Positions 28,659-56,803 of a stretch of 64,000 nucleotides of DNA are shown piece by piece. The stretch comes from an uncultured beta proteobacterium. Lineage in GTDB: Bacteria; Pseudomonadota; Gammaproteobacteria; Burkholderiales; Burkholderiaceae_C. The DNA lies in contig CAJAES010000036.1 of assembly GCA_903938815.1 (NCBI GenBank), positions 1-64,000 on the forward strand, in the 5' to 3' direction. The notes beneath the pieces are model-generated. The model searched no databases. It was not told the origin of the DNA and worked only from the letters and a program-made list of their open reading frames with translations. How positions within the stretch are numbered: position 1 is the first letter of the stretch; each line of letters begins with the position of its first letter. Position numbers and translations under genes: made by a program.

Positions 28659-28664
28659 TCAGAG

Positions 28665-32659: not shown

Positions 32660-32700
32660 GCGGTGGTGCTCCGTGGGGCTAGGCGTTCCGGACCGGTGGC

Positions 32701-33573: not shown

Positions 33574-33595
33574 CGGGCATTCCTCGTTCGAACGA

Positions 33596-34597: not shown

Positions 34598-34814
34598 CTT
34601 CGAGTGCTCCATCACATTTCAGCAAACACATAGATCGAATCACCGGGGCCGGATTCTATCGATGCCCGCGTTCCCGCACACCCCCAAGATCGAATGTTGG
34701 AGTCTTCAAGAACTGCTTGTTTGTGGGGTGTGCGTCGTCAATTGGCCCACCTAGACTGCGCACGTCTCCACGCGACGCAATGCGTGGTCCTTGGTCCACG
34801 CTGTGAGTTTTCCG

Positions 34815-36348: not shown

Positions 36349-39300
36349 ATGACTTCATTCATCCAGTTCGTCTTCACTCCCGCTGGATTGGGGGATGTCA
36401 CGCTCGCCATATCGGCCAGTCGGGCCGGAGCGGTCGGGGTGTACAACGCCGAACTCGACCATGACCCGCGCGAGATCCTCGTCAGGCTCGACGCACTGGC
36501 CCGCCAGGCTCGCGGCGAATACGGCATCAAGCTCGACGCGATCGATGCCGCCGTTTCGGCCCGTCTGCCCCATTTCGCTGCGCGCGGCCTGCGCTGGCTG
36601 ATCCTCGACCGCTCGCTGTGCACCGCGCATGCGCCTCTGACGGACGCACTGCGCCAGGCTGGCGTGCGCGTGCTGGCCGAAGTCCATTCGCACGAACCGC
36701 TTCCGGCGGCAGATCTGGCCCGCCTCGACGGCGTGATGGTCAAGGGCAACGAGGCCGGTGGCTTCGTCGGCGAGGACGCCAGCTTCATCCTGCTGCAGAA
36801 GTGGCTCAAGCAGGCCACGGTGCCGCTGTACCTTCGCGGCGGCCTGACGCCCCACGTGGCGGCCGCCTGCCACGCCGTCGGTGTGGCCGGCGGCGTGCTC
36901 GAATCCCAGCTTCTTCTGCTCGATGAAGTCAGGCTGCCCGACGCCCTTCGCACCGTCATCGGCAATCTGGCCGGCAGCGAGACGGTTGCTGTCGGCGACG
37001 GCGAGCGGGGCGAGTATTTCCGCATCCTGGTCCGGCCCGGCCACACCGCTGCCCGCGCGCTCGTTGCCGAGGGCGATGGCCTGGGGCGCGAGGATCTGCG
37101 AGCGCGGGTCGAGGGGCGCCTCGGCTGGTCCGACCCGACCAAGGGCGTCCTGCCCATCGGCCAGGAAGTCGCCTTCGCGGCGCCTTGGCGCAAGCGATAC
37201 GTGCACCTCGGCGCGGTGCTGGCCGCGGTGGATCACGCCGTGGCCCATCACGCCGCAGCGGCGGCGCGTCAGCCGACGGTGATCGAGGGCGGGCAACTGG
37301 CCCGCACGCTCGGCGTGCGCTACCCGATCGTCCAGGGCCCGATGACGCGCGTGTCGGACACCGCGGAGTTCGCGCTGGCCGTGGCAGAAGGCGGAGCCTT
37401 GCCGATGGTGGCCTTCGCCATGCTGAAGGGCGCCCCGCTGGAAGCCCTGCTGGAGCGCACCGACAAGCTGCTCGGCGAGCGGCCCTGGGGCATCGGCCTG
37501 CTGGGTTTCGCGCCGCAGGAACTGCTGGACGAACAACTCGCGATCGCGGCGCGTTTCAAGCCGGACTACGCCATCATCGCCGGCGGGCGGCCCGACCAGG
37601 CCGTCCACCTCGAGCGGGCCGGGGTGCCCACCTTCCTGCATGTGCCGGCTTCCAGCCTCATCGGCACCTTCCTGACCGAAGGTGCGCGCCGCTTCATCTT
37701 CGAGGGCCGCGAGTGCGGCGGTCACATCGGGCCGTTGAGCAGCTTCGTGCTGTGGAGCTCGATGGTCGACCGCCTCATCGACGAGCTGGCCACCGGCAAG
37801 GTGCCGGCGGCCGAAGTCCAGTTGCTCTTCGCCGGCGGCATCCATGACGCGCTGTCGTCGGCGATGGTGCAGGTCCTGGCCGCGCCGCTGGTCGAACTGG
37901 GCGTGCAGGTGGGCGTTCTGATGGGCAGCGCCTATCTGTTCACGAAGGAAATCGTCGAGTCCGGCGCCATCGTGCCGCAGTACCAGCAGGAAGTCCTGGA
38001 CTGCGTGCACACGGTGAACCTGGAGTCGGGGCCGGGCCACGCCAGCCGCTGCGCGTATACCCCGTTCGCCGAGGGCTTCTTCCGGCAGCGCCAGGAAATG
38101 AAGCGCGACGGCGTGCCGGGCGACGAGAGCCGGCGTGTGCTCGACGACCTCATCCTCGGCCGCCTGCGCATTGCCTCGAAGGGGAGCAAGCGCGACGGCC
38201 TGAACGCGCCGCTGCAGAAACTCGACGCCGCGCAGCAGCGGGAAGAGGGCATGTACATGCTCGGCCAGGTGGTGACGCTGCGCGATGCCCTGACCGACAT
38301 CCAGGCCCTTCACACCGAAGTCACCCAGGGTGCGGCCGATCTGCTCGAGCGCTTCGCGGATGAACCGTCCGTCGTCGCCGCCTTGCCTGCCGCTGCCCCG
38401 GCGGACATCGCGATCGTCGGCATGTCCTGCGTGCTGCCCAAGTCCAAGGACCTGCGCGAGTACTGGGAAAACATCCTCGCCCGCGTGGACGCGATCACCG
38501 AGATCCCGCTGCACCGCTGGGATTGGCGCCTGTACTTCGACGCCGACCGCACCGCCAAGGACAAGGTCTACTCCAAGTGGGGCGGTTTCCTCGACGATCT
38601 GGTCTTCGATCCCACCCAATACGGCATGCCGCCCAAGTCCATCGAGTCGGTCGATCCGATGCAGATGATGGGCCTCGAGGTCGCTCGTCGCACGCTGGTG
38701 GACGCCGGCTACGGCGACCGTGAATTCGATCGCGAGAATGCATCGGTCTTCATCGGTGCCAGCGGTGGTGCGGGCGACTTCGGCCTGCAGTACGGCCTGC
38801 GTTCGGAAATGCCCCGTTTCAACGGGCAACTGCCGGCCGACGTGGCCGAGCGACTGCCCGAGTGGACCGAGGATTCCTTCGCCGGCATCCTGCCCAACGT
38901 CGTGGCCGGGCGCATCGCCAACCGCCTCAACTTCGGCGGCGTCAACGTGGCCGTCGACGCCGCCTGCGCCTCGTCGCTCGCGGCCGTCTATCAGGGCGTG
39001 GCCGAACTCGTGGCGGGCCGCAGCAACTTCGTCATTGCCGGTGGCGTGGACACCGTCCAGGGGCCGTTCGGCTACCTGTGCTTCAGCAAGACGCAGGCCC
39101 TGTCCCCGCGCGGCCGCTGCTCCACCTTCGACGCCGCCGGTGACGGTATCGCCATCAGCGAAGGCATCGCGATGGTCGCGATGAAGCGCCTGGCGGACGC
39201 AGAGCGCGACGGCGACCGGATCTATGCGGTGATCAAGGGCGTGGGCGCCAGCAGCGACGGCAAGGCCAAGGGCCTGACCGCACCGCTGCCCGCCGGCCAG

Positions 39301-42300
39301 TTGCGCGCCATGCGGCGCGCCTATCAGATGGCCGGTTTCGGCCCCTCGACCGTGGGCCTGTTCGAGGCGCACGGCACGGGCACCGTGGTCGGCGACACCG
39401 CCGAACTCGAGAGCACCACGCGACTGATGAAGGAGGAGGGCGCTGCGCCCCGCCAGGCCGTGATCGGCTCGGTCAAGACGAACATCGGCCACACCAAGGC
39501 CAGCGCAGGCGTGGCCGCGATGGTCAAGGCGGCGCTCGCGCTACACCATCGTGTGCTGCCCCCGCACCGCAACTTGACGGTCCCGAACCGAGTGCTCGCG
39601 GACGCCGACGCGCCGCTGTACCTGCTCGACGAGGCCATGCCCTGGATCGCCCGCGAGGACCGGCCGCGCCGCGCCGCCTGCAGCGCCTTCGGCTTCGGCG
39701 GCACCAACTTCCACGCCGTGATGGAAGAGTACGCCGGCGAATACCGCGAATGGTTGCGCCCACCCGCCAGCGATGTCTGGACGGCCGAACTGCTGGTCTG
39801 GAGCGAAGCCGATCGCGGCGCGTTGCTCGGCCGCGTGCAGGCGCTGAGTGCACGCCTGGAGGGCCTGGACGCGTTGGCGCTGCGCGACCTCGCCGCGAGC
39901 CTGACCGCCCGCTGGCGCCGCCGCGGCGAGACCCTGGCCATCGTCGCCAAGGGCATCGACGACCTGCGTGCCAAGCTGGCCGCTGCGGCGTCGTTCCTGG
40001 ACGGCAAGGCAGGCAGCCTGCCGCCTGGCGTGTTCCACGGCACTGCGACGCAGGCCGCTGGCAAGGTGGCGCTGCTGTTCTCGGGCCAGGGCTCGCAATA
40101 CCCCGGCATGGCACGTGAGGCGGGCCTGCACTTCGAGCCGGTGGCGCAGGCTCTGGCTCTGGCCGACGCTGCGCTGAGCGGTCCGTTCGCCGAGCGCTTC
40201 GGCGCCGGTACCCGCCTGTCGCAGTTCGTGTACCCGCGTGGCGCCTACGACGAGGAATCGAAGCTTGCGGCCCGCAAGCGGCTCACCAGCACCGACATCG
40301 CGCAGCCCGCGCTGGGTGCGGTCGAGGTCGGCCTGCTGGGGCTGATGCAGTCGCTCGGCCTGCAGGCCGACATGGCGGCAGGCCACAGCTACGGCGAGTT
40401 CGTCGCGCTGTTCGCTGCCGGTGCCATCGACTTCGACGCACTGATGCAGTTGTCTGCGGCACGTGGGCGGTTCATCGTCGACGCCGCAGCCGATGCCGGG
40501 GCGGAGCTCGGCACCATGGCGGCCGTGAACGCGCCGCGCAAGGTCGTCGAGGACGCCATTGCCGACATCGACCAGGTCATCATCGCCAACCACAACGCAC
40601 CGCTGCAGAGCATCATCTCCGGCACCCGGGACGGCGTGAAAGCCGCGACGGCCCGGCTGGCGCAGGTGGGTGTCGAGGTGACGGAGATTCCGGTTGCCGC
40701 CGCGTTCCACTCGAACCTCGTCAAGCCGGCCCAGCAGGCGCTGAGCGACATGATCGAGGCCACCCCGTGGCAGCCGACCCGCATGCCGGTCTACTCCAAC
40801 ACCACGGCGCGCCCGCACGCAGCCGATGTGGCGCGAGTCAAGAAGCAGATGGCCGAACATCTGGTGCGGCCGGTGGAGTTCGTCGCCGAGATCGAGGCGA
40901 TGCACAAGGATGGTGCGCGGATCTTCATCGAGATCGGGCCCAAGGCCGTGCTCGCACGCCTGACCACCCGCATCCTTGAAGGGCAGCCGCACTCGGCGAT
41001 CGCCATCGACGACGGCAGCGGCCTGGCCGGCCTGCTGGCTGGCGTGGCCCAGATCCTCTGCGCCGGCGTCAACCTCGACCTGGCGCGGCTGTTCGCCCGC
41101 CGCGACTGCCGCATCGGGGACCCGGCGGAGCCCGCCGGCCTGCTGCGCACCCAGACCATTCCGAAGAACGCCTGGCTGCTCAATGGCAGCGTGGCCCGCC
41201 GCGCCGCCGAACCCGTACGCCAGGTGGGCGTGACGCTCGAGCAGGCGAACGAGCGAGCCGCAGAGCAGGCTTCACAGGCGGCAGCCGTTGCCGCCGCCTC
41301 CGTGGCTGCCGCACCCGTGCAGGCGGTCACGCAGGCCGTGGCGCCAGTGGCATCGCTGCCCGCGCGCGTCGCGGCCGAGCCAGGACAATCCGTGCAGATC
41401 AATCAATCGTGGAGAAGGAGCCGTCCAATGGATGAACGACGACCCGGGCCGGGCATGGCGGACTCCGTCATGTCCCAGTACTTTGACACCATGCGGCAGT
41501 TCCTGGAGACCCAGGAACGCGTGATGTCGTCCTACCTCGGCGAGGGCGGCGCAGCGCGGCCCGTCCAGCGTGCACGGCCGATGGCCATGCCGATGGCCTT
41601 GCCGCGGATGTCCGAAGCCGTGCCGGTCGCACCGGTGATCGCACCGCCCGTGGCGGTGGCGGTTCCTGCGCCCGCGCCGGTGGCCGCACCCGTGCCGGCA
41701 CCCGTCGCGAAAGCGCCCGAGGCCGCGGCACCCGTCAAGGTGGCTGCGCCCGCAGCAGCGCCCACACCTGCACCGGTGGCCAAGGCTGCCGAGCCGGCGC
41801 CCGCCGGTGAAGCCCTCAGCCGCGAGAAGCTGGTCGACATGCTCCTGACGATCGTCGAGGAGAAGACCGGCTACCCGCGCGACATGGTCGGGCTGGACCA
41901 GAACCTCGAGGCCGATCTCGGCATCGACTCGATCAAGCGCATCGAGGTCGTGGGGGCCATGCTGCAGTTGCTGCCGGCCGCCCACCGCGAAGCGCTGACC
42001 GAGAGCCGCAGCAAGCTGAATACCCAGCCCACGCTGAACGGCATGGTCGACCTGATCGCGCAAGCCAAGGTGGGGGCGGTCGCCGTCCCTTTTGATTTGG
42101 CCGGGGTGGGAGCAAAGGCTGAGCGCATCAGCCACCCGCCCCGGCTGATCATGCGCCCGCTGCCCGAGCCGATCGCATCCGATGCGGCTCGGTCTCTGGC
42201 GGCGGGCCGTTTCATCCTGACCCGGGACAGCCTGGGCGTCGCGGACGCCCTGGCCGGGCTGCTGCGGGCCCGCAAGGCGGAAGTCGTCCTGCTGGCACCC

Positions 42301-44637
42301 GAGTTGCCCGGTGATGAAACCGCAATCATGCAAGCCTGCCGCAGCTCCGAACTGGCCGCACCGGTGGCGGGCTTCGTCCATCTGGCTGCCCTGGGCATGC
42401 CTGCGCTGGCGGCGGATGCCGGCCCCGCGCAATGGCGCGCTGCCCTGGATGCCAACGAGAAGAGTCTCTTTCTCTTCGTTCGTGAACTGAGCACTGCCTT
42501 CGTCGAGGGCGCCCATGTGGTGGCCGCGTGCGGCCTGGGCGGCCTGTTCGGTCGCGAAGGCACGGCTGCGCCCGAGCTGAGCCTGGTCTCGGGTGCCGTC
42601 GGTGCGCTGAAGTCCCTGCGCGAGGAGCGCGAGGGTCTGCGTGTGAAGGCTGTAGATCTCGACACCCGGCGCACTGCGGCCGAGATGGCCGCGGACCTGC
42701 TGTCGGAGATCGAGCTCGAAGGCGGCCGCCAGGAAGTGGGTTACCCCGAGGGTCGCCGCACGATATTCCGGTCGGTTGCCGAGACGGTCAGCACCGATGC
42801 CGACCGCGAGGCGGCCCTGTCGAATCTGGTGGTCCTGGCCACCGGCGGCGCCCGCGGCATCACGGCCGAGGTGCTGCGCGAACTGGCGCGCCCCGGCAAC
42901 ACGCTGGCGCTGACCGGCCGCAGCGCGCTGGTGGCCGAAGAGCCTGTTGAACTCGCCGCGCTCCCCGATGCGGACAGCCTGCGCAAGCACTTCGTGGCGC
43001 AGGTTCGCGGCGGCGTGCTGAAGCTCACGCCCGGCGAGATCCAGCGCCGGGTGCAGCAGTCGCTCGACCAGCGGGAGATGCGGGCCAACGTGGCCGACCT
43101 TCGTGCCGGCGGCGCGACGGTGGAGTACCACGCGGTCGACGTCACCGACGAGGCCGCGATCAGCGCCCTGGTGGCCGATCTGCGCCAGCGCCACGGGCGC
43201 ATCGACGGCGTGGTGCACGGTGCCGGCGTCATCGAGGACAAGCGCCTGGCCGACAAGAAGAGCGACAGCTGGTCGCGGGTGGTCGACACCAAGGTCATCG
43301 GCCTGCTGCTTCTGCAAAAGCACCTCGACCCCGCCACGCTCAAGTTCTTCACCGTCTTCAGCTCGGTGGCCGGGCGTTACGGCAACAGCGGGCAATCCGA
43401 TTACGCCACCGCGAACGAATTGATGAATCGCCTGTGCATGTCGCTGCAAGCCCGCTGGGGTGAGCGCGTGGCGGTCAGCGCCCTGTGCTGGGGCCCCTGG
43501 GGCGCCACCAAGTTCGGCGCTGGCATGGTGACGGCCGAAACCGAGGCCAAGTTCGCCGAGAAGGGCGTGTACCTCGTCTCCGCCGAACTCGGGCGTCGGC
43601 TGTTCCGCCAGGAAATCACCCGTCGTGCCGGTACCGGCGTCGAAGTGGTGTGCGGCGAAGCGCCCTGGGAATCACGGGAAGCCGAATTGGGCGCCATCCA
43701 CCGCGCTGTCGCGCCTGAAGCCCCGGATCTCGGCGCACTCGTGGGCCGCAGCGCCGTCACGTCGCGTCCGACCGGCGAGCGCATCGTCCCGGTGCGCCTG
43801 GACCCGGCGCGGCATCTCTACCTGCACGAGCACGCGCTCGACGGCAAGCTGGTGCTGCCAGCCGCCGCCGCGCTCGAGATCATGGCCGAGGCAGCCCGTG
43901 CGCTGTGGCCGGGTTGGAGAGTCGTCGAGGTCCGCGAGCACAAACTCATGAAGGGCATCGAGGTCGATCCTGCGGGCCGTGACATGCAGGTCTTCCTGAG
44001 CCCTCCGCCCTACGGCAGCAGCGAGGGTTTCGAGGTCAGCGCCGCGCTCCAGAGCGATCTGGGCAACGGCCGCGCCATGACCCACTATCGCTGCGTCGTC
44101 CGGCTGGAGCACGCGATCCCGGCAGCGATGCCCGCCGCTCGCGGAGACCACGGCGACAAGGCGTTGAGCGTCCAGAAGGCCTACGGCGAATGGCTGTTCC
44201 ACGGCCCGCGCTTCCAGGTCATCGAGCACATCGAAGGCCTGTCCCGCGCAGGGTCGGGGGCCCGCGTGCGTTCGACCACGCCCACGGCGTGGCTCGGCGC
44301 CTCGGCTACCGACGAACCCGGCTGGCTGTTCGATCCGGCGCTGCTGGACGCTGCCGCGCAGATGGCCTGGTTGTGGTCGCGCGCCTACCGGGACGAATCG
44401 GCCCTGCCCACGCGCTTCGGCCGCGTGGTCCGTTACCGCGACAAGCTGCCCCAACGCATGCACATGGAATACGAACGCATCGAGGTCGATGACCCCACGC
44501 TGATCCGCGGCAACGTCACCTTCTTCGACGAGCAGGGCGAGCCCGTGATGGCGATCGAGGAACTCGACAGCGTGGCAAGCGCCGCACTGAACCGCCTGGG
44601 TGGCACGGCGCGTGCCGCCGAGAGTGCCTCGGCATGA
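36349..44637 (+). CDS. PUFA-synthase-like iterative PKS: NPD-NPD-KS-AT-ACP-KR-DH
   Basis: 2762 residues. About 1-300: nitropropane-dioxygenase-like barrel, degenerate (EAGGF at 135-139). About 315-600: second NPD/PfaD-like flavin barrel with ECGGHIG and catalytic-type His459; PfaD-like domains act as enoyl reductases. KS 685-1130 with Cys873, His1008, His1048. AT about 1230-1570 with GHSYGE (Ser1347) and His1454. Helix motif 1703-1733, Ala/Pro linker, one ACP with LGIDSIKR (Ser1861). KR about 2150-2440 with TGGARGIT and Tyr2352. DH 2475-2745 with H-x3-G-x4-P (His2495) and DAAAQ (Asp2667). The set can elongate and process acyl chains, as in secondary-lipid (Pfa/HglE-like) synthases. Only one ACP, unlike PUFA synthases with five to nine. 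Overlaps the next gene by four bases. Confidence 0.88.
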   Translation: MTSFIQFVFTPAGLGDVTLAISASRAGAVGVYNAELDHDPREILVRLDALARQARGEYGIKLDAIDAAVSARLPHFAARGLRWLILDRSLCTAHAPLTDALRQAGVRVLAEVHSHEPLPAADLARLDGVMVKGNEAGGFVGEDASFILLQKWLKQATVPLYLRGGLTPHVAAACHAVGVAGGVLESQLLLLDEVRLPDALRTVIGNLAGSETVAVGDGERGEYFRILVRPGHTAARALVAEGDGLGREDLRARVEGRLGWSDPTKGVLPIGQEVAFAAPWRKRYVHLGAVLAAVDHAVAHHAAAAARQPTVIEGGQLARTLGVRYPIVQGPMTRVSDTAEFALAVAEGGALPMVAFAMLKGAPLEALLERTDKLLGERPWGIGLLGFAPQELLDEQLAIAARFKPDYAIIAGGRPDQAVHLERAGVPTFLHVPASSLIGTFLTEGARRFIFEGRECGGHIGPLSSFVLWSSMVDRLIDELATGKVPAAEVQLLFAGGIHDALSSAMVQVLAAPLVELGVQVGVLMGSAYLFTKEIVESGAIVPQYQQEVLDCVHTVNLESGPGHASRCAYTPFAEGFFRQRQEMKRDGVPGDESRRVLDDLILGRLRIASKGSKRDGLNAPLQKLDAAQQREEGMYMLGQVVTLRDALTDIQALHTEVTQGAADLLERFADEPSVVAALPAAAPADIAIVGMSCVLPKSKDLREYWENILARVDAITEIPLHRWDWRLYFDADRTAKDKVYSKWGGFLDDLVFDPTQYGMPPKSIESVDPMQMMGLEVARRTLVDAGYGDREFDRENASVFIGASGGAGDFGLQYGLRSEMPRFNGQLPADVAERLPEWTEDSFAGILPNVVAGRIANRLNFGGVNVAVDAACASSLAAVYQGVAELVAGRSNFVIAGGVDTVQGPFGYLCFSKTQALSPRGRCSTFDAAGDGIAISEGIAMVAMKRLADAERDGDRIYAVIKGVGASSDGKAKGLTAPLPAGQLRAMRRAYQMAGFGPSTVGLFEAHGTGTVVGDTAELESTTRLMKEEGAAPRQAVIGSVKTNIGHTKASAGVAAMVKAALALHHRVLPPHRNLTVPNRVLADADAPLYLLDEAMPWIAREDRPRRAACSAFGFGGTNFHAVMEEYAGEYREWLRPPASDVWTAELLVWSEADRGALLGRVQALSARLEGLDALALRDLAASLTARWRRRGETLAIVAKGIDDLRAKLAAAASFLDGKAGSLPPGVFHGTATQAAGKVALLFSGQGSQYPGMAREAGLHFEPVAQALALADAALSGPFAERFGAGTRLSQFVYPRGAYDEESKLAARKRLTSTDIAQPALGAVEVGLLGLMQSLGLQADMAAGHSYGEFVALFAAGAIDFDALMQLSAARGRFIVDAAADAGAELGTMAAVNAPRKVVEDAIADIDQVIIANHNAPLQSIISGTRDGVKAATARLAQVGVEVTEIPVAAAFHSNLVKPAQQALSDMIEATPWQPTRMPVYSNTTARPHAADVARVKKQMAEHLVRPVEFVAEIEAMHKDGARIFIEIGPKAVLARLTTRILEGQPHSAIAIDDGSGLAGLLAGVAQILCAGVNLDLARLFARRDCRIGDPAEPAGLLRTQTIPKNAWLLNGSVARRAAEPVRQVGVTLEQANERAAEQASQAAAVAAASVAAAPVQAVTQAVAPVASLPARVAAEPGQSVQINQSWRRSRPMDERRPGPGMADSVMSQYFDTMRQFLETQERVMSSYLGEGGAARPVQRARPMAMPMALPRMSEAVPVAPVIAPPVAVAVPAPAPVAAPVPAPVAKAPEAAAPVKVAAPAAAPTPAPVAKAAEPAPAGEALSREKLVDMLLTIVEEKTGYPRDMVGLDQNLEADLGIDSIKRIEVVGAMLQLLPAAHREALTESRSKLNTQPTLNGMVDLIAQAKVGAVAVPFDLAGVGAKAERISHPPRLIMRPLPEPIASDAARSLAAGRFILTRDSLGVADALAGLLRARKAEVVLLAPELPGDETAIMQACRSSELAAPVAGFVHLAALGMPALAADAGPAQWRAALDANEKSLFLFVRELSTAFVEGAHVVAACGLGGLFGREGTAAPELSLVSGAVGALKSLREEREGLRVKAVDLDTRRTAAEMAADLLSEIELEGGRQEVGYPEGRRTIFRSVAETVSTDADREAALSNLVVLATGGARGITAEVLRELARPGNTLALTGRSALVAEEPVELAALPDADSLRKHFVAQVRGGVLKLTPGEIQRRVQQSLDQREMRANVADLRAGGATVEYHAVDVTDEAAISALVADLRQRHGRIDGVVHGAGVIEDKRLADKKSDSWSRVVDTKVIGLLLLQKHLDPATLKFFTVFSSVAGRYGNSGQSDYATANELMNRLCMSLQARWGERVAVSALCWGPWGATKFGAGMVTAETEAKFAEKGVYLVSAELGRRLFRQEITRRAGTGVEVVCGEAPWESREAELGAIHRAVAPEAPDLGALVGRSAVTSRPTGERIVPVRLDPARHLYLHEHALDGKLVLPAAAALEIMAEAARALWPGWRVVEVREHKLMKGIEVDPAGRDMQVFLSPPPYGSSEGFEVSAALQSDLGNGRAMTHYRCVVRLEHAIPAAMPAARGDHGDKALSVQKAYGEWLFHGPRFQVIEHIEGLSRAGSGARVRSTTPTAWLGASATDEPGWLFDPALLDAAAQMAWLWSRAYRDESALPTRFGRVVRYRDKLPQRMHMEYERIEVDDPTLIRGNVTFFDEQGEPVMAIEELDSVASAALNRLGGTARAAESASA
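41411..41430 (+). promoter_or_regulatory. Internal ribosome site and in-frame ATG within the PKS
   Basis: Within the PKS gene, GGAGAAGGAG (41411-41420) lies seven bases before an in-frame ATG (41428-41430, residue 1694, MDERRPGPGMADSVM). This is a better ribosome site than that of the gene's own start. It falls exactly in the linker between AT and the helix-ACP-KR-DH half, so a separate protein of about 1069 residues may be made, or two genes have fused here. Confidence 0.55.
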
Positions 44638-47600: not shown

Positions 47601-49511
47601 ATGGAACCTGCCGCGCCTGCAGCGGCCGAGGCCATGCCAGACGGCTCTGACATCGAGTCTCCCGAGGCCGCTGCCCAGGCGCGCGTCATGGCCGACTACT
47701 TCGACGTCATGCGCGGATTCCTGGATCAGCAGCGCAGCGTCGTCGAGAGCTGGCCCGTCGAGGCGGATGGCGAAATCGCCTCCGCGGGCGGCGGCTCTCC
47801 GACCTCGACCTGGCCGTCCACGCACACGGTCGACCATCGCACGCCGCTGCTCGACGAGATCGTCTCGCTCGGCGGCGGGCGGGTGCACGCCAGGTGCCGC
47901 GTCAGCCTGATCAACGACCGTTTCATCCGCGACCACGTCATGTCGGGCCCGGTTTCTGGCACCGATCCCACACTGTTCGGGCTTTCCTGCGTGCCGTTCA
48001 CCGTCAGCCTCGAGGTGATGGCCGAAGCCTGCACGCTGCTGGCCGGCCGGCACGATGTCCATGTGATCCAGAACGTCAAGGCGTTCGACTGGGTGACGCT
48101 CGACGACGAGGCGCTCGAATTCGAGGTGCACGCCGAGGTGCTGGACGCTGCGCTGGGCCTCTATGCCGCACGCGTTGTCACGCCGCGCGGAACGGCCCTG
48201 TCGGCGGAGTTCGTCTTCGAGGCCGATTGGCGCCTGTCCGGAGTGCCCGAGCTTGCCGAGCGCAGGGAGTCCTGCCTGAACTCCCCGAACCTCTACGCCA
48301 CCGGCATGTTCCACGGGCCCGTGTTCCAGAGCATGAGCTATGTCGAGGCCTGGGACGACAGCGGTATCGACGTGCAACTCACGGGCTGCACGCTGGACGG
48401 CTTCTTCGCCGAAGGCCAGCGACCCCAACTGGTGCTGAACCCGGTGTTGCTGGACGCCATGGGGCAGGTCGTCGCGTGCTGGCTGGTGCAGTACGTCGGC
48501 ACCTCGTTCCATGCGTTCCCGTCCACGATCGACCGGCTGGAACTCTACGAGGCCTGCCCAGCAGACCGCCAAGGCATCGTCCTGCGCATGCGTCAGCGCC
48601 CGAGTGACGGCGTCTCGACGGACATCACCGCACCGCGTGCGTGGCAGTTCGACTGCGTCGATGCCGAAGGCCGCGTGCTGATGCGCGGTCACGACCTCGT
48701 GAACCTGTTCTTCGTGGCCCCCCCGGCGTACCACGAATTCCGCTGCGACCCGCTCGGCGGTTGGCTGGGCCGCCCGTCGGCAGTGGTGCTGGCGCCCGAA
48801 GTGCAGCTCTGGGAAGTGCCGCTGATGACGGAGGAGTTCTGCTCGCAGTCGGGTGCGATCTGCCTTCGCATCATGGCGCACGCGCTGCTCGCGGCCTCGG
48901 AGCGCGCCGAGTGGCGGGCCCTGGCTGCAACGCCGCTGCGGCGCCGTCGCGAATGGCTCTTCGGCCGCGCCGCGCTCAAGGAAGCGACGCGCGCCTGGGT
49001 GCAGGGCATGACCGGCCAGTGGCTCTACCCGACCGACATCGTGGTTCGCCACGACGCGCAGGGCGCGCCATCGGTGGACGGCTGGTGGTGCGAACACGTG
49101 ATCCCGGCCCCGCGCGTGTCACTTTCTCATGACAGCCGCGCCTGCCTGGCCGCGGTGGCGCCGTCAGACCTGCCCGTGGGGGTGGATTTCGAGGCCTTCG
49201 GGCGCGTACGCCAGCCGGAACTCATCGTCGACAGCCTGGCGCCGTCCGAGCGTGGGTTGGTCCAGGGCTTGCATGGCGTTGCACTGGAAGAACGCGTGTT
49301 GCGTTTGTGGTGCGCCAAGGAAGCGGCAGCCAAATGTCTCGGAATCGGCCTCCAGGGCCAGCCCGAAGCCTTCCGTGTCATAGCAGCAGACGAAGGGTTC
49401 GAGACATTGGTCGTGGAACACGAGTTAGGGACAGTGGAAACCCGCTTGGCGCGCCAGGAGAGCACGATAATTGCGCTGGCCGTGATGGGCGGCGTTGAGG
49501 TTGATGGATGA
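44634..49511 (+). CDS. PUFA-synthase-like PKS: KS-AT-DH-phosphopantetheinyl transferase
   Basis: 1625 residues. KS about 22-470 with intact triad: Cys221 (DAACSSS), His356 (HGTG), His396 (SMISH), so it is not an obvious chain-length factor. AT about 580-950 with FPGEGSQYP, GHSSGE (Ser690) and RGYHTPAF. A helix motif (VMADYFDVMRGFLDQQ, about 1018-1041) matches that of the first PKS. DH-type double hotdog about 1060-1370 with His1101 (RDHVMSG) and DAMGQ (Asp1274); about 12 extra residues separate the His from the conserved Pro. C-terminal Sfp-type PPTase about 1390-1625: VSLSHD, GVDFEAF (Asp1518, Glu1520), WCAKEAAAK. It can therefore activate the ACPs of the system itself. Coupled at both ends by ATGA overlaps. 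Confidence 0.87.
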   Translation: MSPARKLETGAPTTRTAPQAPAPIAIIGMACIFPQAPDLGAFWNNIIGAVDAVGEPVASWDAQRYLDSGRIKTQFGGYLKDLYRFDPREFGIMPNSMDGGEPDQFLALKVARDALADAGYLGPEFDHTDTGVILGHSTYLHRGQVTVIQTDIVVDQTLEVIRAAMPHLDEDALAQVRDMLRKKLPPMNSDTAPGLVPNVMTGRIANRLNLRGPNYLVDAACSSSLLAVGSAIDELRAGRSRMMLAGGVNASLPADVTTIFTQLGALSARGKVRPFEAGSDGTLLGEGLGVVVLKRLDDALADGDRIYAVLRGVGQSSDGRGTGLLAPSHDGETLAIRRAYAASGVDPASIGLIEAHGTGIPLGDRTEIASLKSVFGERSAPIGTKALGSVKSMISHCIPAAGIASLIKMSLSLHHRVLPPTLCDQVNPELGIDKTPFFINTQTAPWPARLDAPRRAAVNAFGFGGTNSHAIVEQAPAAAKRPLSLNDWPSELCVLSADSVEALSGKLGELAAALARHPEWRLAEVAKALLAADASGEHRMAIVAKDPAGLAKSIRQALTRLGEARESDGGAWSTRGGVAYSARRVEGKLAFLFPGEGSQYPTMFADLAQCFDEVQHWLDFWHGLYDLPVGQTRTDIVFPSCEIGAEQRKQLEQRMHDMDVGSESVFIGGMAMNELLVAMGVTPDVMMGHSSGESAALGASGANPADTPQERAACISLHYAVYEELLKAGKITTGALLAVGALPPATVEEQIAAVGQDVVVAMDNCGNQMVLYGQPDGIARVQKALTTLGGICLPLPFDRGYHTPAFAAVSKAFLQYYKDVKLGRPKVPLYSCASVGLFPETPAAVRQLAAAQWSQKVRFRETVLKMHDDGVRVFIEVGPSANLTAFVNDILIDRDYVAAATNVRRKGGVEQFLGVLGQLYLVGRPPALDRLFSRRAIAALDLQGGVVQPKGVLLDNTMPMVRLTEADRSLLRGLMPAAAAFTATEPSARMEPAAPAAAEAMPDGSDIESPEAAAQARVMADYFDVMRGFLDQQRSVVESWPVEADGEIASAGGGSPTSTWPSTHTVDHRTPLLDEIVSLGGGRVHARCRVSLINDRFIRDHVMSGPVSGTDPTLFGLSCVPFTVSLEVMAEACTLLAGRHDVHVIQNVKAFDWVTLDDEALEFEVHAEVLDAALGLYAARVVTPRGTALSAEFVFEADWRLSGVPELAERRESCLNSPNLYATGMFHGPVFQSMSYVEAWDDSGIDVQLTGCTLDGFFAEGQRPQLVLNPVLLDAMGQVVACWLVQYVGTSFHAFPSTIDRLELYEACPADRQGIVLRMRQRPSDGVSTDITAPRAWQFDCVDAEGRVLMRGHDLVNLFFVAPPAYHEFRCDPLGGWLGRPSAVVLAPEVQLWEVPLMTEEFCSQSGAICLRIMAHALLAASERAEWRALAATPLRRRREWLFGRAALKEATRAWVQGMTGQWLYPTDIVVRHDAQGAPSVDGWWCEHVIPAPRVSLSHDSRACLAAVAPSDLPVGVDFEAFGRVRQPELIVDSLAPSERGLVQGLHGVALEERVLRLWCAKEAAAKCLGIGLQGQPEAFRVIAADEGFETLVVEHELGTVETRLARQESTIIALAVMGGVEVDG

Positions 49512-49810
49512 GCAATTTGAAGAAGGACACCACGATCGATACCGTGGTCGCGATCGTCGAAGATCTGACCCAGGACTGGGGTATCGAACTGGAGGTGCCC
49601 TGTGGCGCCCACACGCGAGTCGTCGCGGACCTGGAGTTCGCTTCGGTCGACATCATCCAGCTGTGCGTGGCGCTCGAGCAGTGCTACGGGCGTCGTTTCG
49701 GTTTCCAGGATCTCCTGATGAAGGACGGCAGCTACGTGGGCGATCTCTCGCTCGGCCAGCTCGCCGCGTTCGTCGATGCCAAGCTCAAGACTGAAGGAAT
49801 GACGCAATGA
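49508..49810 (+). CDS. Discrete acyl carrier protein
   Basis: A 100-residue acidic four-helix carrier protein. DLEFASVDIIQLCVALEQ is the ACP signature with Ser46 as the phosphopantetheine site, in the place of the usual D-S-L. Its start overlaps the PPTase-bearing gene and its stop overlaps the following phosphodiesterase-like gene, both by ATGA. The large PKS has only one internal ACP, so this free carrier may hold the starter, shuttle the finished chain to the hydrolases, or act as the cognate carrier of the second KS-AT protein. Confidence 0.85.
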   Translation: MSNLKKDTTIDTVVAIVEDLTQDWGIELEVPCGAHTRVVADLEFASVDIIQLCVALEQCYGRRFGFQDLLMKDGSYVGDLSLGQLAAFVDAKLKTEGMTQ

Positions 49811-51405
49811 CCGTGAAGACCCTTTTCATTGGCATGGATGGTGCCACCTTCACCGTCCTGAACGACCTGATCAAGCCGGGCGAGGGCGGCCCCGTGATGC
49901 CCTTCCTGGCGCGCATCTTCGCCGATGGCGTGCGTGCCAAGCTGCGCTCCACGCCGAACCCCCTGACGCCCCCGGCCTGGGTGTCGCTGATGACCGGGCG
50001 CGGCCCGGGCCACCACGGCGTGTTCGACTTCATCCGTGCCGAGGAGCGTGGCGACGAAGTCTTCTTCACGCTCTACGACTCGCGCGACTGCCGCGTCGAG
50101 ACGATCTGGTCCATTGCCAGCCGGCAGGGCAAGAAGGTCGCGGCGCTGAACTTCCCGTTCACCGCGCCCCCGCCGAAAGATCTCAACGGCTTCATCGTGC
50201 CGGGCTTCATCCCCTGGCGCCATCTGCGCCGCAATTCGTATCCGTCCGACGTGTACGACCGCATGAAGACCATTCCCGGCTTCAACGCGCAGGAGCTGGC
50301 CTGGGATTTCGAGCAGGAAAAGCAGTCCGGCAACGAACTCAGCGATGCCGACCGCGAACAGTGGATCAGCTACCACCTGCCGCGCGAGAAGCAGTGGTTC
50401 CGCGTGGCCGAGCACCTGATGAGCGAGGAAGCGCCCGAGCTGATGGCCGTGCTGTTCGACGGCGTCGACAAACTGCAGCACCAGGCATGGCCGTACGTCG
50501 ATCCGGCGCTGCAGCAAGGTGAGCTCAGCGGCTTCCACAAGCGCATGCGCGAGCTGTCGCTGGGGTATTTCCGCCAGCTCGACGGCTTCATCGAGAGCTT
50601 GGTCACGGCCGCTGGCCCCGACGTGCAGGTGTTCTTCGCTTCCGACCACGGCTTCACGGCCTCGACCGAGGTGGTGCGCATCAACGCCTTCCTGGCCGAG
50701 AAGGGCTACGTTCACTTCCGTGAACTGCCGGAAGGCGATGCCGGCGAACGCCGCGACAACAGCTACTTCGCCTACCTCGACTGGCAGAAGACGACGGCCT
50801 ATTGCCGCACGCCCTCGTGCAACGGCATCACGATCCGCGTGGCCCGCGCCCCCGGCGAGACCGGCATCGACCCGTCGGAATACGAATCCTTCCGTGCCCG
50901 CCTCATCGCCGACCTCGAATCCCTGGTCGACCCGGAAAACGGCGAACGGATCATTGCCGAGATCCACAAGCGCGAAGACGTGTTCCCCGGTTCGGCCATG
51001 AAGGAAGCCCCCGACCTGCTCCTGGTGCTGCGCGATTTCGGCTTCGTGTCGGTCAAGAACGTGCTGCCCGTCGTCGAGAAGCGCAACTACCCGATCGGCA
51101 CCCACCACCCGGACGGCGTGTTCCTGGCCTACGGCCCGGGCATCGAGTCCGGCAAGATGCTGGGCCGCCGCCACATCACCGATGTCGCGTCCACCATCCT
51201 GTACAGCCTCGGGCTGGACGTCCCGTCCGACTTCGAGGGCGTGGTGCCGCCGGCGATGTTCACTGCCGACCACAAGGCCGCACATCCCATCAAGATCGGC
51301 GCGCCGACCGTGCGAAACCAGCAGGACGGCGTGATCGAGGCGATGGACGAGGACGAGAAGAAGCAGATCATGGAACAGCTGCAGATGCTCGGGTACATGG
51401 AGTAA
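49807..51405 (+). CDS. Type I phosphodiesterase/nucleotide pyrophosphatase-like protein
   Basis: A 532-residue alkaline-phosphatase-superfamily enzyme of the phosphodiesterase/NPP kind (PF01663-like). Metal and catalytic positions: TLFIGMDGATF (first Asp), NPLTPPAWVSLMTGRGPGHHG (Thr nucleophile region), FDGVDKLQHQ (Asp, His), FASDHGFTAS (Asp-His) and GTHHPDGVFLAYGPG (His). No signal peptide, so it acts in the cytoplasm. AP enzymes of this shape can cleave or transfer phospho-head-groups, which would suit tailoring of a lipid product. It overlaps the ACP gene by four bases and the next gene follows after five. Confidence 0.8.
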   Translation: MTVKTLFIGMDGATFTVLNDLIKPGEGGPVMPFLARIFADGVRAKLRSTPNPLTPPAWVSLMTGRGPGHHGVFDFIRAEERGDEVFFTLYDSRDCRVETIWSIASRQGKKVAALNFPFTAPPPKDLNGFIVPGFIPWRHLRRNSYPSDVYDRMKTIPGFNAQELAWDFEQEKQSGNELSDADREQWISYHLPREKQWFRVAEHLMSEEAPELMAVLFDGVDKLQHQAWPYVDPALQQGELSGFHKRMRELSLGYFRQLDGFIESLVTAAGPDVQVFFASDHGFTASTEVVRINAFLAEKGYVHFRELPEGDAGERRDNSYFAYLDWQKTTAYCRTPSCNGITIRVARAPGETGIDPSEYESFRARLIADLESLVDPENGERIIAEIHKREDVFPGSAMKEAPDLLLVLRDFGFVSVKNVLPVVEKRNYPIGTHHPDGVFLAYGPGIESGKMLGRRHITDVASTILYSLGLDVPSDFEGVVPPAMFTADHKAAHPIKIGAPTVRNQQDGVIEAMDEDEKKQIMEQLQMLGYME

Positions 51406-51410
51406 GACGG

Positions 51411-52472
51411 ATGCCCGTGGCGATCGTCAATGGTGTCAGGCTGAATTACGTCCAGATCGACGACGGCGAGGGCGATGGCGCCGACCGCGAAGATCTGGTG
51501 ATGGTTCATGGCCTGGCCACGAACCTGGCGTTCTGGTACCTTCAGTACGCGCCGGTCGCGGCCAAGCGCTTTCGCGTCACCTTGTTCGATCTTCGCGGGC
51601 ACGGGCGCTCCGAGATGCCCAAGTCCGACTATTCGCCTGCCCACATGGCGCGCGACATGGCGGGCCTGATGGATCACCTGGGCATCGGCAAGGCCCACTT
51701 CCTGGCCCACAGCTTCGGCGGCGTGGTCACGATGAACTTCGCCTGCCAGCACCCGGACCGTGTTCGCAGCCTGGTGCTGGCCGACAGCCACATCTCCGCC
51801 GTTCGGCACGTCGAGACCCGACGGGAGTGGGCCTACGGCGAAAACCTCCAGGGAATCCTGGACCGCCACGGACTGGACCTCGACACCCGCGACCCCTATT
51901 TCGGATACCGCCTCCTGACCCGCGTCGCCGAGTGGCAGACGCGCGGCCTGGCGGTGCCCCCGGAGATGGCCGAAGTGGTGAGCCCTCTGATGGGCAAGAC
52001 GGGTTCGCGCACGGCCGCGCAGTGGCTGCACCTCATGAGTTCCACGTCGGCATCCGCCGAGATGATGGGCGACGACGGCCTCAGCCTGGAGCGCCTGCGG
52101 AAGTTCCGCTTCCCGATCCTGGCCATGTATGGCGACAACTCCCAGGCGCGCCTCACTGGCAGCGAGTTGCTGGAGGTCTGGCCGCACGCCGAGTTCCAGC
52201 GCGTTCGCGACGCCGGGCACTTCTTTCCCACCTCGCGGCCCGAAGAGGTGCTCCTCGGGTGCGAGCGGCTCTGGGGCGGCGAATACGCTGCCCATGCCAG
52301 GCGCCACCGCAGCGGTGAGGCCGGGAAGCGGTTCTTCCGCAGCGACCGTGTCTACGCCACGGCGGGCAACTGGTACTTCACCACCCGCGAGACGCATCGC
52401 GTCGGCCCGTTTCCCTGCCGTGACGAGGCGCGCGCCGAACTCGCGAGCTTCATCCTGTCCGTTCAGCCCTGA
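51411..52472 (+). CDS. Alpha/beta hydrolase with C-terminal DUF6316-like tail
   Basis: A 353-residue alpha/beta hydrolase, no signal peptide. MVHGLATNLAFWYLQY is the oxyanion region, LFDLRGHGRSEMP the strand-5 motif, AHSFGGVVTM the nucleophile elbow, and DAGHFFPTSRP the catalytic His. Residues about 310-353, FFRSDRVYATAGNWYFTTRE then THRVGPFPCRDEARAELASFI, form a small extra domain like DUF6316, found in proteobacterial proteins of unknown function. In this operon it is the best candidate for the thioesterase or acyl transferase that releases the chain, since neither PKS carries a thioesterase domain. Start at 51411, five bases after the preceding stop. Confidence 0.78.
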   Translation: MPVAIVNGVRLNYVQIDDGEGDGADREDLVMVHGLATNLAFWYLQYAPVAAKRFRVTLFDLRGHGRSEMPKSDYSPAHMARDMAGLMDHLGIGKAHFLAHSFGGVVTMNFACQHPDRVRSLVLADSHISAVRHVETRREWAYGENLQGILDRHGLDLDTRDPYFGYRLLTRVAEWQTRGLAVPPEMAEVVSPLMGKTGSRTAAQWLHLMSSTSASAEMMGDDGLSLERLRKFRFPILAMYGDNSQARLTGSELLEVWPHAEFQRVRDAGHFFPTSRPEEVLLGCERLWGGEYAAHARRHRSGEAGKRFFRSDRVYATAGNWYFTTRETHRVGPFPCRDEARAELASFILSVQP

Positions 52473-52474
52473 CG

Positions 52475-53923
52475 ATGCCCCCAGCGAACCGACTCGGCGT
52501 CCACAGGGGGCTGGGCCAGAAGGACTTCAAGCTGGTCGCCTACGGCGGCTTCGGCGATGGTCACAACTCCTACGCGCACTCGATGGCGTGGTTCAACGAC
52601 CGCCTGTACGTCACGACGATGCGTGGCGCGTTCGCGCTGATGCGTTCGCGCCTGTCGCTCGGCCTCGACACCTGGCCGGTCGAAGGGCCGCCGGACCCCT
52701 TCGAGATCGATCTCGCCGCCGAGATCTGGGCCTACGACCCCCGCACCGACATCTGGGAGCGCGCCTTCAAGGCCCCCAGCATCATCGGCAGCCACGGCAA
52801 GCCGATCCCGCGCGACATCAGCTACCGCAGCATCGCGGTGCACCGCGAATCCCCCGGCGGCCCGCCCGTGCTGTATGTCAGCACCTGGTCGCCGGCGCGC
52901 GGTCCCGGCCCGGTGATCATGCGTTCGGAAGACGGCCGCAAGTTCGAGGTCACCTGCGAGCCCGGCCTCACCGGCCTGCCGGTCACGACCATCCGCTCGC
53001 TGATCTCGTTCAAGGGGCGGCTCTACACCACGCCCGCAGGCTCGCGGGGCGGCAACACCAACATCTCGGGCCACGTGGTGGTCTACGAGAGCCGCGACCC
53101 CGCCACCGGCAACTGGGAGCCCGTGAGCGACCTCGGCTTCGGTGACCACACCAACAAGTCGCTGCACGAGATGTGCGCCTGGGGCGACTACCTCTATGCC
53201 GGCACGCTGAACCTGGAAGGCTTCCAGCTCTGGCGCAGCCGCTGCGAGGGCGAGGCCCCTTACGAGTGGGAGAAGGTCATGGAGAGCGGCGCCTATCGCG
53301 GCAAGCTCAACCAGGGCGTTCTCAGCATGATGCCGTTCAAGGGCCACCTGTACATCGGCACCGGGATCCAGGGTGGCGGCATCGACCGCGCCAACAATGT
53401 CGGCCCCGCCGCGGCCGAACTGATCCGGCTGCACGAGGACATGACCTGGGACCTCATCGTGGGCGAGCCGCGCGACACCCCGGTGGGCCGCAAGGACCCG
53501 CTGTCGGGCCGCATGACCGGCTTCGACAACTTCTTCAACGGCTACTTCTGGCGCATGTGCGTGCACGACGGCTGGCTGTACATGGGCACCTTCGAGTGGA
53601 GTTCGGTGCTTGGCTATGTCAAGCACAGCCGCTGGCCCGGCGCGTTTTCCAACATGCTGGCCTACGTCACCCCCAAGGCGCTGTTCGAGAACCAGTCGGG
53701 CTTCGACCTGTACCGCAGCTTCGACGGCGAGAACTGGGTTCCCGTCACGGTCAACGGCATGGGCAACCCCTACAACATGGGCCTGCGGGTGCTCGAGTCC
53801 ACGCCCTACGGCATGTTCATCGGTACCGCCAACCCATGGGGCCCGCGCATCATGCCCCTTGACAGCGACCACTACGTGTTCAACCCGCGAGGAGGCTGCG
53901 AGGTCTTCCGCGGCAGCCTCTAG
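52475..53923 (+). CDS. Cytosolic beta-propeller protein of the polyketide operon
   Basis: Function not recognised. 482 residues without signal peptide or membrane helix, rich in Gly, Trp and Tyr. Repeating blades have patterns such as MAWFNDRLYVTTMRGAFAL, LISFKGRLYTTPAGSRGG, CAWGDYLYAGTLNLEGFQLW, MPFKGHLYIGTGIQGGG and CVHDGWLYMGTFEWSS, the look of a seven-bladed propeller of kelch/Asp-box type (LYRSFDGENW). It is conserved in spacing within the operon (two bases after the hydrolase stop, seven before the esterase). It could be a scaffold or a tailoring enzyme. Confidence 0.7.
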   Translation: MPPANRLGVHRGLGQKDFKLVAYGGFGDGHNSYAHSMAWFNDRLYVTTMRGAFALMRSRLSLGLDTWPVEGPPDPFEIDLAAEIWAYDPRTDIWERAFKAPSIIGSHGKPIPRDISYRSIAVHRESPGGPPVLYVSTWSPARGPGPVIMRSEDGRKFEVTCEPGLTGLPVTTIRSLISFKGRLYTTPAGSRGGNTNISGHVVVYESRDPATGNWEPVSDLGFGDHTNKSLHEMCAWGDYLYAGTLNLEGFQLWRSRCEGEAPYEWEKVMESGAYRGKLNQGVLSMMPFKGHLYIGTGIQGGGIDRANNVGPAAAELIRLHEDMTWDLIVGEPRDTPVGRKDPLSGRMTGFDNFFNGYFWRMCVHDGWLYMGTFEWSSVLGYVKHSRWPGAFSNMLAYVTPKALFENQSGFDLYRSFDGENWVPVTVNGMGNPYNMGLRVLESTPYGMFIGTANPWGPRIMPLDSDHYVFNPRGGCEVFRGSL

Positions 53924-53930
53924 ACCGCGC

Positions 53931-54809
53931 ATGCGACGCCCTGGCCTGCTGGCCGCGTTCCTGGCCGCCCGTTTCGGCGCCGGCGACGGCGACGAGCCCG
54001 CTGCGCAGGACGACGACGAAGGCAGCGGCGGCCCGCAGTTCGACCCGCCCGAGGGCATCGGCGTCGAGCGCGACCTGGCCTACGGCGAGCACCCGGCGCA
54101 GCGGCTGGATGTCTACCGGCCGAGGACCGCGCCCAACGGCGGCGTGATCGTTCTGGTGCACGGTGGCGGCTGGCGGCGAGGCGACAAGGCCGGCCAACGC
54201 CTGGTGCGCAACAAGGTGTCGCACTGGGTGGGGCGCGGCTGGATCCTCGCGTCCATCAACTACCGGCTGCTGCCGGATGCCGGCCCCGTGGTGCAGGCCG
54301 ATGACGTGGCACGTGCGCTGGGCTTCATTCAGGACCGCTGCGCTGCATGGGGCGCAGACGCCGCCAGCTGCGTGCTGATGGGCCATTCGGCCGGTGCCCA
54401 CCTGGTGGCGCTCCTTGCCGCAGACGGCGCCATCGCCGGGCGCCAGGGCGCCAGGCCCTGGATGTCCACCATCGCCATCGACACGGCCGCCTACGACCTC
54501 GTTGCATTGATGCAGGCCCGGCATTTCGGCCTGTACGACGAGGCATTCGGCGCCGACTCGCAGTACTGGCGGGAGGCCTCGCCGATGCATCGCCTCCAGG
54601 CGCCGCCGGCCGCGCCGCTGCTGATGGTGTGTTCCTCCCGCCGCGACGATGCCTGCGGGCCGGCCCAGGCCTTCGCCGGGCGCATCCAGGCGCTGGGTGG
54701 CCAGGCGAGGGTGCTCCCGGTGGACCTCGGGCACTTCGAGATCAACCGGCAACTCGGGCTGGACCCCGCCTACACCGCGGCCGTGGACGCGTTCCTGGCC
54801 GGCGACTGA
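53931..54809 (+). CDS. Alpha/beta-hydrolase esterase of the polyketide operon
   Basis: A 292-residue HSL/BD-FAE-type esterase, last gene of the operon. VLVHGGGWRRGDKAGQ, LASINYRLLPDAGPV, VLMGHSAGAHLVALLA and DLGHFEINRQL are the oxyanion, strand, nucleophile and His motifs. The first 45 residues are a short hydrophobic stretch (RRPGLLAAFLAARFGAG) followed by an acidic linker; this is not a good signal peptide but could associate with membrane. It is a near relative of the secreted esterase at 32701-33573, linking the two flanks of the locus. Confidence 0.78.
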   Translation: MRRPGLLAAFLAARFGAGDGDEPAAQDDDEGSGGPQFDPPEGIGVERDLAYGEHPAQRLDVYRPRTAPNGGVIVLVHGGGWRRGDKAGQRLVRNKVSHWVGRGWILASINYRLLPDAGPVVQADDVARALGFIQDRCAAWGADAASCVLMGHSAGAHLVALLAADGAIAGRQGARPWMSTIAIDTAAYDLVALMQARHFGLYDEAFGADSQYWREASPMHRLQAPPAAPLLMVCSSRRDDACGPAQAFAGRIQALGGQARVLPVDLGHFEINRQLGLDPAYTAAVDAFLAGD

Positions 54810-54881
54810 GCGGGAAACTCCCCAAGGTAGGCCGGGCCCGCGCGGCCTAGAATGATTTCTTTCGAACCAGGAGCGTCACGC

Positions 54882-55388: not shown

Positions 55389-55428
55389 ATCTCCCGGCGC
55401 GGCGCCGGCGATGGGCGAAAATACCGGG

Positions 55429-56793: not shown

Positions 56794-56803
56794 GGAGCAG
56801 GGT

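Follow-up and report, generated by a model that had tools for sequence, protein, structure and literature searches.

What does the seven-gene cluster at positions 36349..54809 make, and is it a complete system? It lies in the 64,000-nucleotide window analysed here (contig CAJAES010000036.1 of GenBank assembly GCA_903938815.1, from an uncultured beta proteobacterium), and the original prediction had described it as a polyunsaturated fatty acid (PUFA)-synthase-like operon of unusual composition. Judged by sequence, the products of its first two open reading frames (ORFs) together make up an iterative type I synthase of the Ars type (Type P-like), whose domains are ketosynthase (KS), acyltransferase (AT), acyl carrier protein (ACP), ketoreductase (KR), dehydratase (DH), enoyl reductase (ER) and phosphopantetheinyl transferase (PPTase), and a second gene set, encoding a sulfotransferase, a second AlkP-fold enzyme, an outer-membrane factor and a HlyD adaptor, travels with the synthase operon. 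Our favored reading, to which we assign a probability of roughly 0.5, is that this locus serves to produce a long-chain lipid, sulfate it, and export it, the Ars-type iterative synthase building a long, largely reduced chain. As predicted, the seven genes are tightly packed: all open with ATG and run to a stop, and neighbors overlap by 4 bases at three junctions and are separated by 5, 2, and 7 bases at the others.

36349..44637, plus strand: ORF1, iterative type I synthase NPDa-NPDb-KS-AT-ACP-KR-DH, 2762 aa (Pfam/NCBIfam and motifs)
44634..49511, plus strand: ORF2, second synthase KS-AT-DH-PPTase, 1625 aa (Pfam and motifs)
49508..49810, plus strand: ORF3, free acyl carrier protein, 100 aa (conserved Ser motif, aligned homologues)
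49807..51405, plus strand: ORF4, AlkP-superfamily phosphodiesterase, 532 aa (PF01663)
51411..52472, plus strand: ORF5, alpha/beta hydrolase, candidate thioesterase/acyl hydrolase, 353 aa (family match, nucleophile-type Ser motif)
52475..53923, plus strand: ORF6, WD40/YncE-like beta-propeller, probably seven-bladed, of an unnamed family, 482 aa (predicted structure)
53931..54809, plus strand: ORF7, alpha/beta esterase, found mostly in Burkholderiales-type loci, 292 aa (family match)

In ORF1, Pfam and NCBIfam list a FabK/NMO-type domain (NPDb, residues 317-611), KS (686-1126), AT (1243-1544), ACP (1832-1873), KR (2162-2384), and DH (2471-2742). Residues 1-310 (NPDa), which neither database lists as NPD, form a second, diverged NPD-like region 32% identical to the N-terminal end of the Type P protein of Beijerinckia discussed below; NPDb keeps the motif ECGGHIG, while NPDa reads GNEAGGF and has lost the His. 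The reductase had been called PfaD-like, a label that did not survive, as its solved relatives are FabK/NMO types and no PfaD occurs among nine structure matches. The domains of ORF2 are KS (23-470), AT (591-898), DH (Pfam, 1222-1351, with an HxxxG motif near residue 1100), and PPTase (1514-1594). The active-site motifs expected of the KS, AT, and DH domains of both proteins were found, including in ORF1 the KS Cys-His-His, the AT GHSxG, and the DH HxxxGxxxxP and DxxxQ; since the ORF2 KS retains its Cys, it is not a chain-length factor (CLF). ORF3 has no Pfam or NCBIfam match, and alignment of its homologues revealed a conserved Ser within a DLxFASVDII-like motif. ORF5 and ORF7 are alpha/beta hydrolases by family match.

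The accessory genes are as unusual as had been claimed, a phosphodiesterase and a propeller sharing an operon with the synthase. Asp and His residues at what we take to be the expected metal sites of ORF4 are invariant in alignments, and sequence searches gave no convincing or close solved relative. For ORF6, no Pfam or NCBIfam family matched and neither a signal nor a transmembrane (TM) segment was seen; its predicted model is a confident beta-propeller (pLDDT 91, pTM 0.92), and 945 homologues were found at E<=0.001. Its structural matches are generic (WD40/YncE/Kelch-like); no specific family stood out and no function was indicated.

Comparison of the flanks of cluster loci in other phyla uncovered a second operon at 21136-27249, 9 kb upstream. 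The seven genes stand as originally delimited but are half of the picture: this sulfotransferase/export operon was missed, and the functional unit probably reaches far upstream. Its genes, and the cys genes beyond them, are the following.

21136..21948, plus strand: second AlkP-fold hydrolase, 270 aa (PF00884; STM4013-like, under that family's cut-off), with no CxPxR sulfatase motif
21972..22886, plus strand: 3'-phosphoadenosine 5'-phosphosulfate (PAPS)-type sulfotransferase, 304 aa (PF13469)
22917..23333, plus strand: conserved small protein, 138 aa (recurs in the flank comparison)
23345..24811, plus strand: NodT/TolC-family outer-membrane efflux lipoprotein (family match)
24808..27249, plus strand: HlyD-type periplasmic adaptor, membrane-anchored with a multi-TM part, 813 aa (family match), with no HExxH motif
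16041..16961, minus strand: CysD, sulfate adenylyltransferase small subunit (family match)
14132..16039, minus strand: CysNC, sulfate adenylyltransferase/adenosine phosphosulfate kinase, for PAPS supply (family match)

At E<=1e-5, just two PDB entries matched the sulfotransferase, 4gox (1.7e-17) and CurM 4gbm (6.7e-16), so that its nearest solved relatives are the sulfotransferases of the olefin synthase (OLS) and of CurM. R12, S13, R144, and S152, presumably its PAPS site, are invariant in 11 aligned rows. Two exporter parts were found, the outer-membrane factor and the periplasmic adaptor; the latter scores over the Pfam HlyD cut-offs and under the NCBIfam RND_mfp cut-off.

We then asked how widely these genes occur together. 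A scan of genome contigs with ORF4, which is the best conserved of the accessory proteins, returned 35 loci, 34 of them at 60-82% identity; locus L063 was rejected as a cluster member, its ORF4 identity being only 26%. ORF2 lies upstream of ORF4 in 33 of the 34 (the remaining contig begins inside ORF4), an ORF5-like hydrolase is present in 33, and the propeller in 30, some of these contigs being truncated; the propellers absent from L036 and L058 were found elsewhere in those genomes. ORF2-ORF6 synteny extends over loci of Pseudomonadota, Thermodesulfobacteriota, Nitrospirota, and Planctomycetota, and because the gene set recurs in other phyla, the operon is not a chance grouping. The records are labeled Rubrivivax, other Burkholderiales, Pseudomonas, Nitrosomonas, Chromatiales, Nevskia, Spongiibacteraceae, Desulfobulbaceae, Nitrospira, Candidatus Brocadia, Symplocastrum (no propeller in its available stretch), and, for one record, "Verrucomicrobia", although labels of metagenome-assembled genomes (MAGs) may be wrong; a culture-collection strain, Rubrivivax gelatinosus DSM 1709, also carries the cluster. 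The NPD part of ORF1 was found in 22 of the 23 genomes searched, the miss being that of the non-member L063; the non-member genome G063 has none of sulfotransferase, adaptor, and propeller. A motif count over 20 upstream stretches gave a single ACP motif for ORF1 in 16 of them, two motifs in one, and three in Nevskia; two stretches end before ORF1. Plasmid carriage was considered and rejected, since 72,556 plasmid records yielded no phosphodiesterase match at 1e-40. In G059, a Candidatus Brocadia genome (L080, L081), there are apparently two NPD-fused synthases.

Within the same genus, the phosphodiesterase, the sulfotransferase, and the HlyD adaptor each occur in the same 9 of 81 genomes and, at the thresholds used, in none of the other 72; the figure of 1/C(81,9), ~4e-12, for such identical sets ignores shared ancestry and is not usable as a P value. 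In seven of the nine carriers, the phosphodiesterase and sulfotransferase are on one contig, about 21-28 kb apart. Across the 22 cluster genomes reached via named loci (six of which also belong to the genus set), the sulfotransferase is present in 20, the adaptor in 21, and the propeller in 22, and the sulfotransferase lies on the ORF1 contig in 15 of the 20 that have it. Propeller and sulfotransferase matches are 31-56 bases apart in four genomes (G049, G444, G207, and G061), and in G061 the adaptor adjoins both, an arrangement that ties the two window operons together. On one G207 contig (C105, 10-4116; L101), three sulfotransferase matches surround one propeller match.

How might such a set of proteins work? 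In the pathway that we propose, the PPTase of ORF2 would charge the ACPs, and KS1/AT1 would extend the chain with malonyl units, while KR, DH, and the FabK-like NPDb would reduce it fully in most cycles; on the precedent of ArsA (C22-C26), the chain should come out largely saturated and C20 or longer. The phenolic-lipid chains that ArsA produces are C22-26 or C23-C25 (PMC3098273, PMC4824345), and by analogy the window synthase should make a long, largely reduced chain. NPDa, its reductase His lost, may pair structurally with NPDb; the fused tandem recalls the ERb-ERc heterodimer of the thraustochytrid synthase, one partner of which is described as unstable alone (PMC13311796). KS2/AT2 might provide a second extension or a hand-over step, passing the chain to the free ACP, with PfaB as precedent: a PfaB-type AT can act as a terminal acyltransferase (PMC12895367), and ArsA can pass chains from its ACP straight to partner enzymes (PMC3098273, PMC4824345, PMC6274091). 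The sulfotransferase, with PAPS, would sulfate a hydroxyl of the carrier-bound chain, an acyl-ACP being the leading guess for its substrate given OLS and CurM as nearest solved relatives. ORF5 and/or ORF4 may then release the chain or process a phospho-headgroup, headgroup processing by ORF4 being a guess. The propeller would most likely be a docking scaffold, its gene adjoining a sulfotransferase gene in the four other genomes, and the amphiphile would leave for the cell surface via the HlyD adaptor and the outer-membrane channel. The product and the roles of the phosphodiesterase and the propeller are what we infer here.

The Ars-type assignment was examined with KS trees. In a tree of 96 rows (FabF and five long PfaC-type rows left out), the NPD-fused KS1 (35 rows), PfaA-type (25), KS2 (24), and PfaC-type (12) sequences each fell on one side of a branch, with SH-aLRT support of 86, 99, 96, and 100, respectively. 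A tree of 40 hand-picked rows, built without L117 and without PfaC, gave support of 100/99 for NPD-fused KS1, 100/99 for PfaA-type, and 100/100 for KS2. One long NPD-fused row (L117) fell outside its clade in a 93-row tree, which omitted KS matches <380 residues, the partial KS1 of L029-L063, and the KS2 of those loci beyond a chosen 15. The PfaA-type rows of these trees were identified by architecture and family score, not as characterized species, and the trees contain no HglE or enediyne KS. The plasmid cluster of Beijerinckia indica ATCC 9039, listed as Type P together with Azotobacter vinelandii (Shulse and Allen 2011, PMC3098273), sits inside the NPD-fused KS1 clade, in a sub-clade apart from that of the window. 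Within these trees, the two KS domains did not both fall in a characterized product clade with the same gene order, KS1 grouping with a Type P synthase in a separate sub-clade and with a different gene order.

Conversely, the doubled N-terminal NPD, few ACPs, and fused PPTase, which the original prediction took for a new combination, are all found in the Beijerinckia cluster, the member of the Ars/Type P group (to which arsABCD of Azotobacter vinelandii belongs) on which our comparison was made. Its Type P protein likewise has a double NPD fused to KS-AT-ACP-KR and matches ORF1 at 32% over NPDa, 51% over NPDb, and 43% over KS-AT; another of its proteins combines a PKS-type DH with a PPTase (ArsD-like) and matches the C-terminal part of ORF2 at 29% and 32%; and its KS1 shares one well-supported clade with that of the window. 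With this N-terminal architecture found in both clusters, the fused, doubled reductase counts as a trait of the NPD-fused branch and not as something peculiar to the window. The window differs in that ORF1 has its own DH, ORF2 brings an extra KS-AT, and there are an additional free ACP, phosphodiesterase, propeller, sulfotransferase, and exporter. Beijerinckia in turn has two chalcone/stilbene-synthase-like genes in its cluster, for which the window's genome offers no counterpart: PF02797 has no match in the whole genome (the control gave matches in 3 of 14 genomes), and hence there is no type III polyketide synthase (PKS) partner. A plasmid cluster of Streptomyces sp. NBC_01243, whose record states no product, encodes, in the window's order, an NPD-fused synthase, a KS-AT-DH-PPTase protein, an ACP, and an alpha/beta hydrolase, but continues with a glycosyltransferase and a methyltransferase, without phosphodiesterase or propeller in the stretch read. 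The heterocyst glycolipid system (HglE) is also a secondary-lipid synthase, and its export runs through DevBCA-TolC. By comparison, the window adaptor gives only a weak DevB match (32.5 bits against a cut-off of 129), and among the genes scanned with Pfam, those from 6.9 kb to 54.8 kb of the window, there is no glycosyltransferase and no ABC pump was identified.

Could the product be a PUFA after all? Whole ORF1 does pass the NCBIfam PfaA model TIGR02813 (1067 versus 1010 bits), and it shares with the Pfa omega-3 synthases the KS-AT-ACP-KR order and iterative logic; the description as a member of the Pfa/Ars superfamily holds. The KS-AT stretch alone does not pass that model, however, and Pfa synthases have an unfused reductase, tandem ACPs, and KS-CLF (PMC3098273), while ORF1 has one ACP against the multiple tandem ACPs of PfaA and the window has no CLF. 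The dehydratases are of PKS type: for ORF1 and ORF2 Pfam lists only PS-DH and no FabA-type dehydratase/isomerase, which makes a PUFA product unlikely. Both KS domains also belong to clades other than those of Pfa, the split between NPD-fused KS1 and the unfused PfaA type being supported at 100/99. We rejected a PUFA product on dehydratase type, ACP number, and KS clade, and a true omega-3 type synthase is the most improbable of the alternatives. On the leading guess of an acyl-ACP substrate, sulfation could have two outcomes, the sulfate being kept in an exported sulfolipid or lost in forming an alkene. In the latter case, our main rival, OLS/CurM logic would operate in trans: the beta-hydroxyl would be sulfated and ORF5 would release the chain with loss of CO2 and sulfate, yielding a long-chain terminal alkene. 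OLS (Synechococcus) and CurM (curacin) share the sulfotransferase family and its PAPS site, act on a chain held by a carrier protein, and sulfate beta-hydroxyacyl chains before decarboxylative release (PMC3903477); in the synthase operon stand a free ACP and an alpha/beta hydrolase whose Ser motif is of the nucleophile type. We nevertheless consider the alkene unlikely. The best solved relatives of ORF5 are enol-lactonase/esterase types, with no CurM thioesterase named among its 53 PDB matches at 1e-10, and ORF5-like hydrolases lie beside the phosphodiesterase in L113 and L115 (G512 and G739), genomes without such a sulfotransferase match. The His common to CurM and OLS in an NFLxH stretch is absent from that place in the window sulfotransferase, which is a separate protein grouped with export genes that an alkene pathway does not obviously need. 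Alkene pathways are also not known to involve AlkP enzymes. Retention of the sulfate is favored by the presence of export genes and of a second AlkP enzyme, and by the fact that no fused thioesterase of the OLS type was seen. Less likely again, the sulfotransferase might act on a sugar or phospho-headgroup that is added to the chain and that the two AlkP enzymes process, in which case the product would be a sulfated glyco- or phospholipid; the company of two AlkP-superfamily enzymes would suit this, but Pfam lists no glycosyltransferase in the scanned part of the window and the sulfotransferase is closest to acyl-ACP enzymes.

That the two operons are separate systems, neighbors by chance in this lineage, we regard as improbable in view of the identical 9/81 distribution of phosphodiesterase, sulfotransferase, and adaptor, the co-localization in other phyla, and the propeller-sulfotransferase adjacency in four genomes. 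Two observations speak for it, the distance between the operons and the existence of synthase clusters without sulfotransferase, and these stand with others that weigh against a lipid that is made, sulfated, and exported by one locus. The operons are 9 kb apart, with unrelated-looking genes in between. Sister clusters in G512, G739, and G780 combine synthase, phosphodiesterase, and propeller matches without sulfotransferase or adaptor matches at 1e-40; sulfation is therefore not part of every cluster of the wider type and may be an elaboration of one branch. The sulfotransferase is absent from 2 of the 22 cluster genomes (G057 and G062) and the adaptor from one (G042), whereas G430 and G444 have a sulfotransferase without an adaptor match and G144 has adaptor and propeller without a sulfotransferase. 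Since all nine carriers within the genus may belong to a single lineage, their co-occurrence does not amount to nine independent events. In 5 of the 34 loci (L031, L032, L033, L046, and L057), no free ACP lies beside the phosphodiesterase gene, although for L033 and L046 it was located elsewhere. Genes for CysD/CysNC were seen in the window and in the stretches read for 6 of the 34 loci (the upstream stretches covered 19 genomes), but these are housekeeping genes needed for assimilation anyway, and their nearness may be chance. No inner-membrane pump was recognized with the HlyD adaptor among the genes scanned, the adaptor having a membrane part of its own. Finally, the pathway has no explained step for the phosphodiesterase. 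As a separate matter, in L067, L070, and L036 the free ACP is away from the phosphodiesterase gene and near a methyltransferase gene.

Is such a lipid new? The original suggestion of a new lipid or polyketide product remains plausible in the form of an undescribed lipid. A literature search on the gene set found no description in titles and abstract openings, most subscription journals lying outside its coverage. PMC13291983 contains no mention of Rubrivivax, Pseudomonas, phosphodiesterase, or phosphatase, nor does the text of PMC3098273 mention Rubrivivax, phosphodiesterase, or hydrolase, although a cluster drawn only in its Figure 1 could be missed. At slightly less than even odds, these loci specify an undescribed class of envelope lipid, a carrier-bound sulfated long chain that an Ars-related megasynthase builds together with a second condensing protein, that is completed in trans, and that a dedicated pump takes out of the cell. 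The finishing set would comprise the free ACP, the sulfotransferase, the AlkP enzyme, and the propeller scaffold. The carriers span several phyla and include, besides pseudomonads, MAGs labeled Desulfobulbaceae, Nitrospira, or Candidatus Brocadia. It is the partner genes, not the fused doubled reductase, that look new. The cluster represents a widespread variant of Ars-type secondary-lipid synthase with predicted sulfation and export. Products are given for 6 of 20 types of Pfa/Ars-like secondary-lipid synthases (PMC3098273), and to this group, few of whose products are known, the cluster adds a directly testable predicted function. It attaches an uncharacterized phosphodiesterase family and a propeller family without Pfam match to a pathway, and it occurs both in a culture-collection strain and in MAGs of environmentally important lineages.

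Around the two operons, a CitMHS/TrkA-C anion permease, possibly a sulfate importer, adjoins cysNC (12396-14135, minus strand), and between cysD and the AlkP-fold gene lies the gene of a protein of 830 aa (18585-21077) that has DUF11 repeats and starts like a lipoprotein. The gap between the operons (27237-36089) holds secreted or lipoprotein-like genes at 27237 (plus), 28665, 29973, 31259, and 33596 (minus), and 34791 (plus), with an esterase resembling ORF7 at 32701 (minus). The families of the 33596 and 34791 genes recur near the cluster in other Burkholderiales loci, the latter gene being the following feature.

34791..36089, plus strand: 432-aa protein without Pfam match, cluster membership uncertain (recurs near the cluster in several Burkholderiales loci)

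Downstream of ORF7, genes resembling PhaR, RimO, and cystathionine lyase (named by eye) follow at 54852-57964; similar genes at L033, L034, L035, L037, L038, and L046 indicate a genomic site common to the Rubrivivax/Burkholderiales group.

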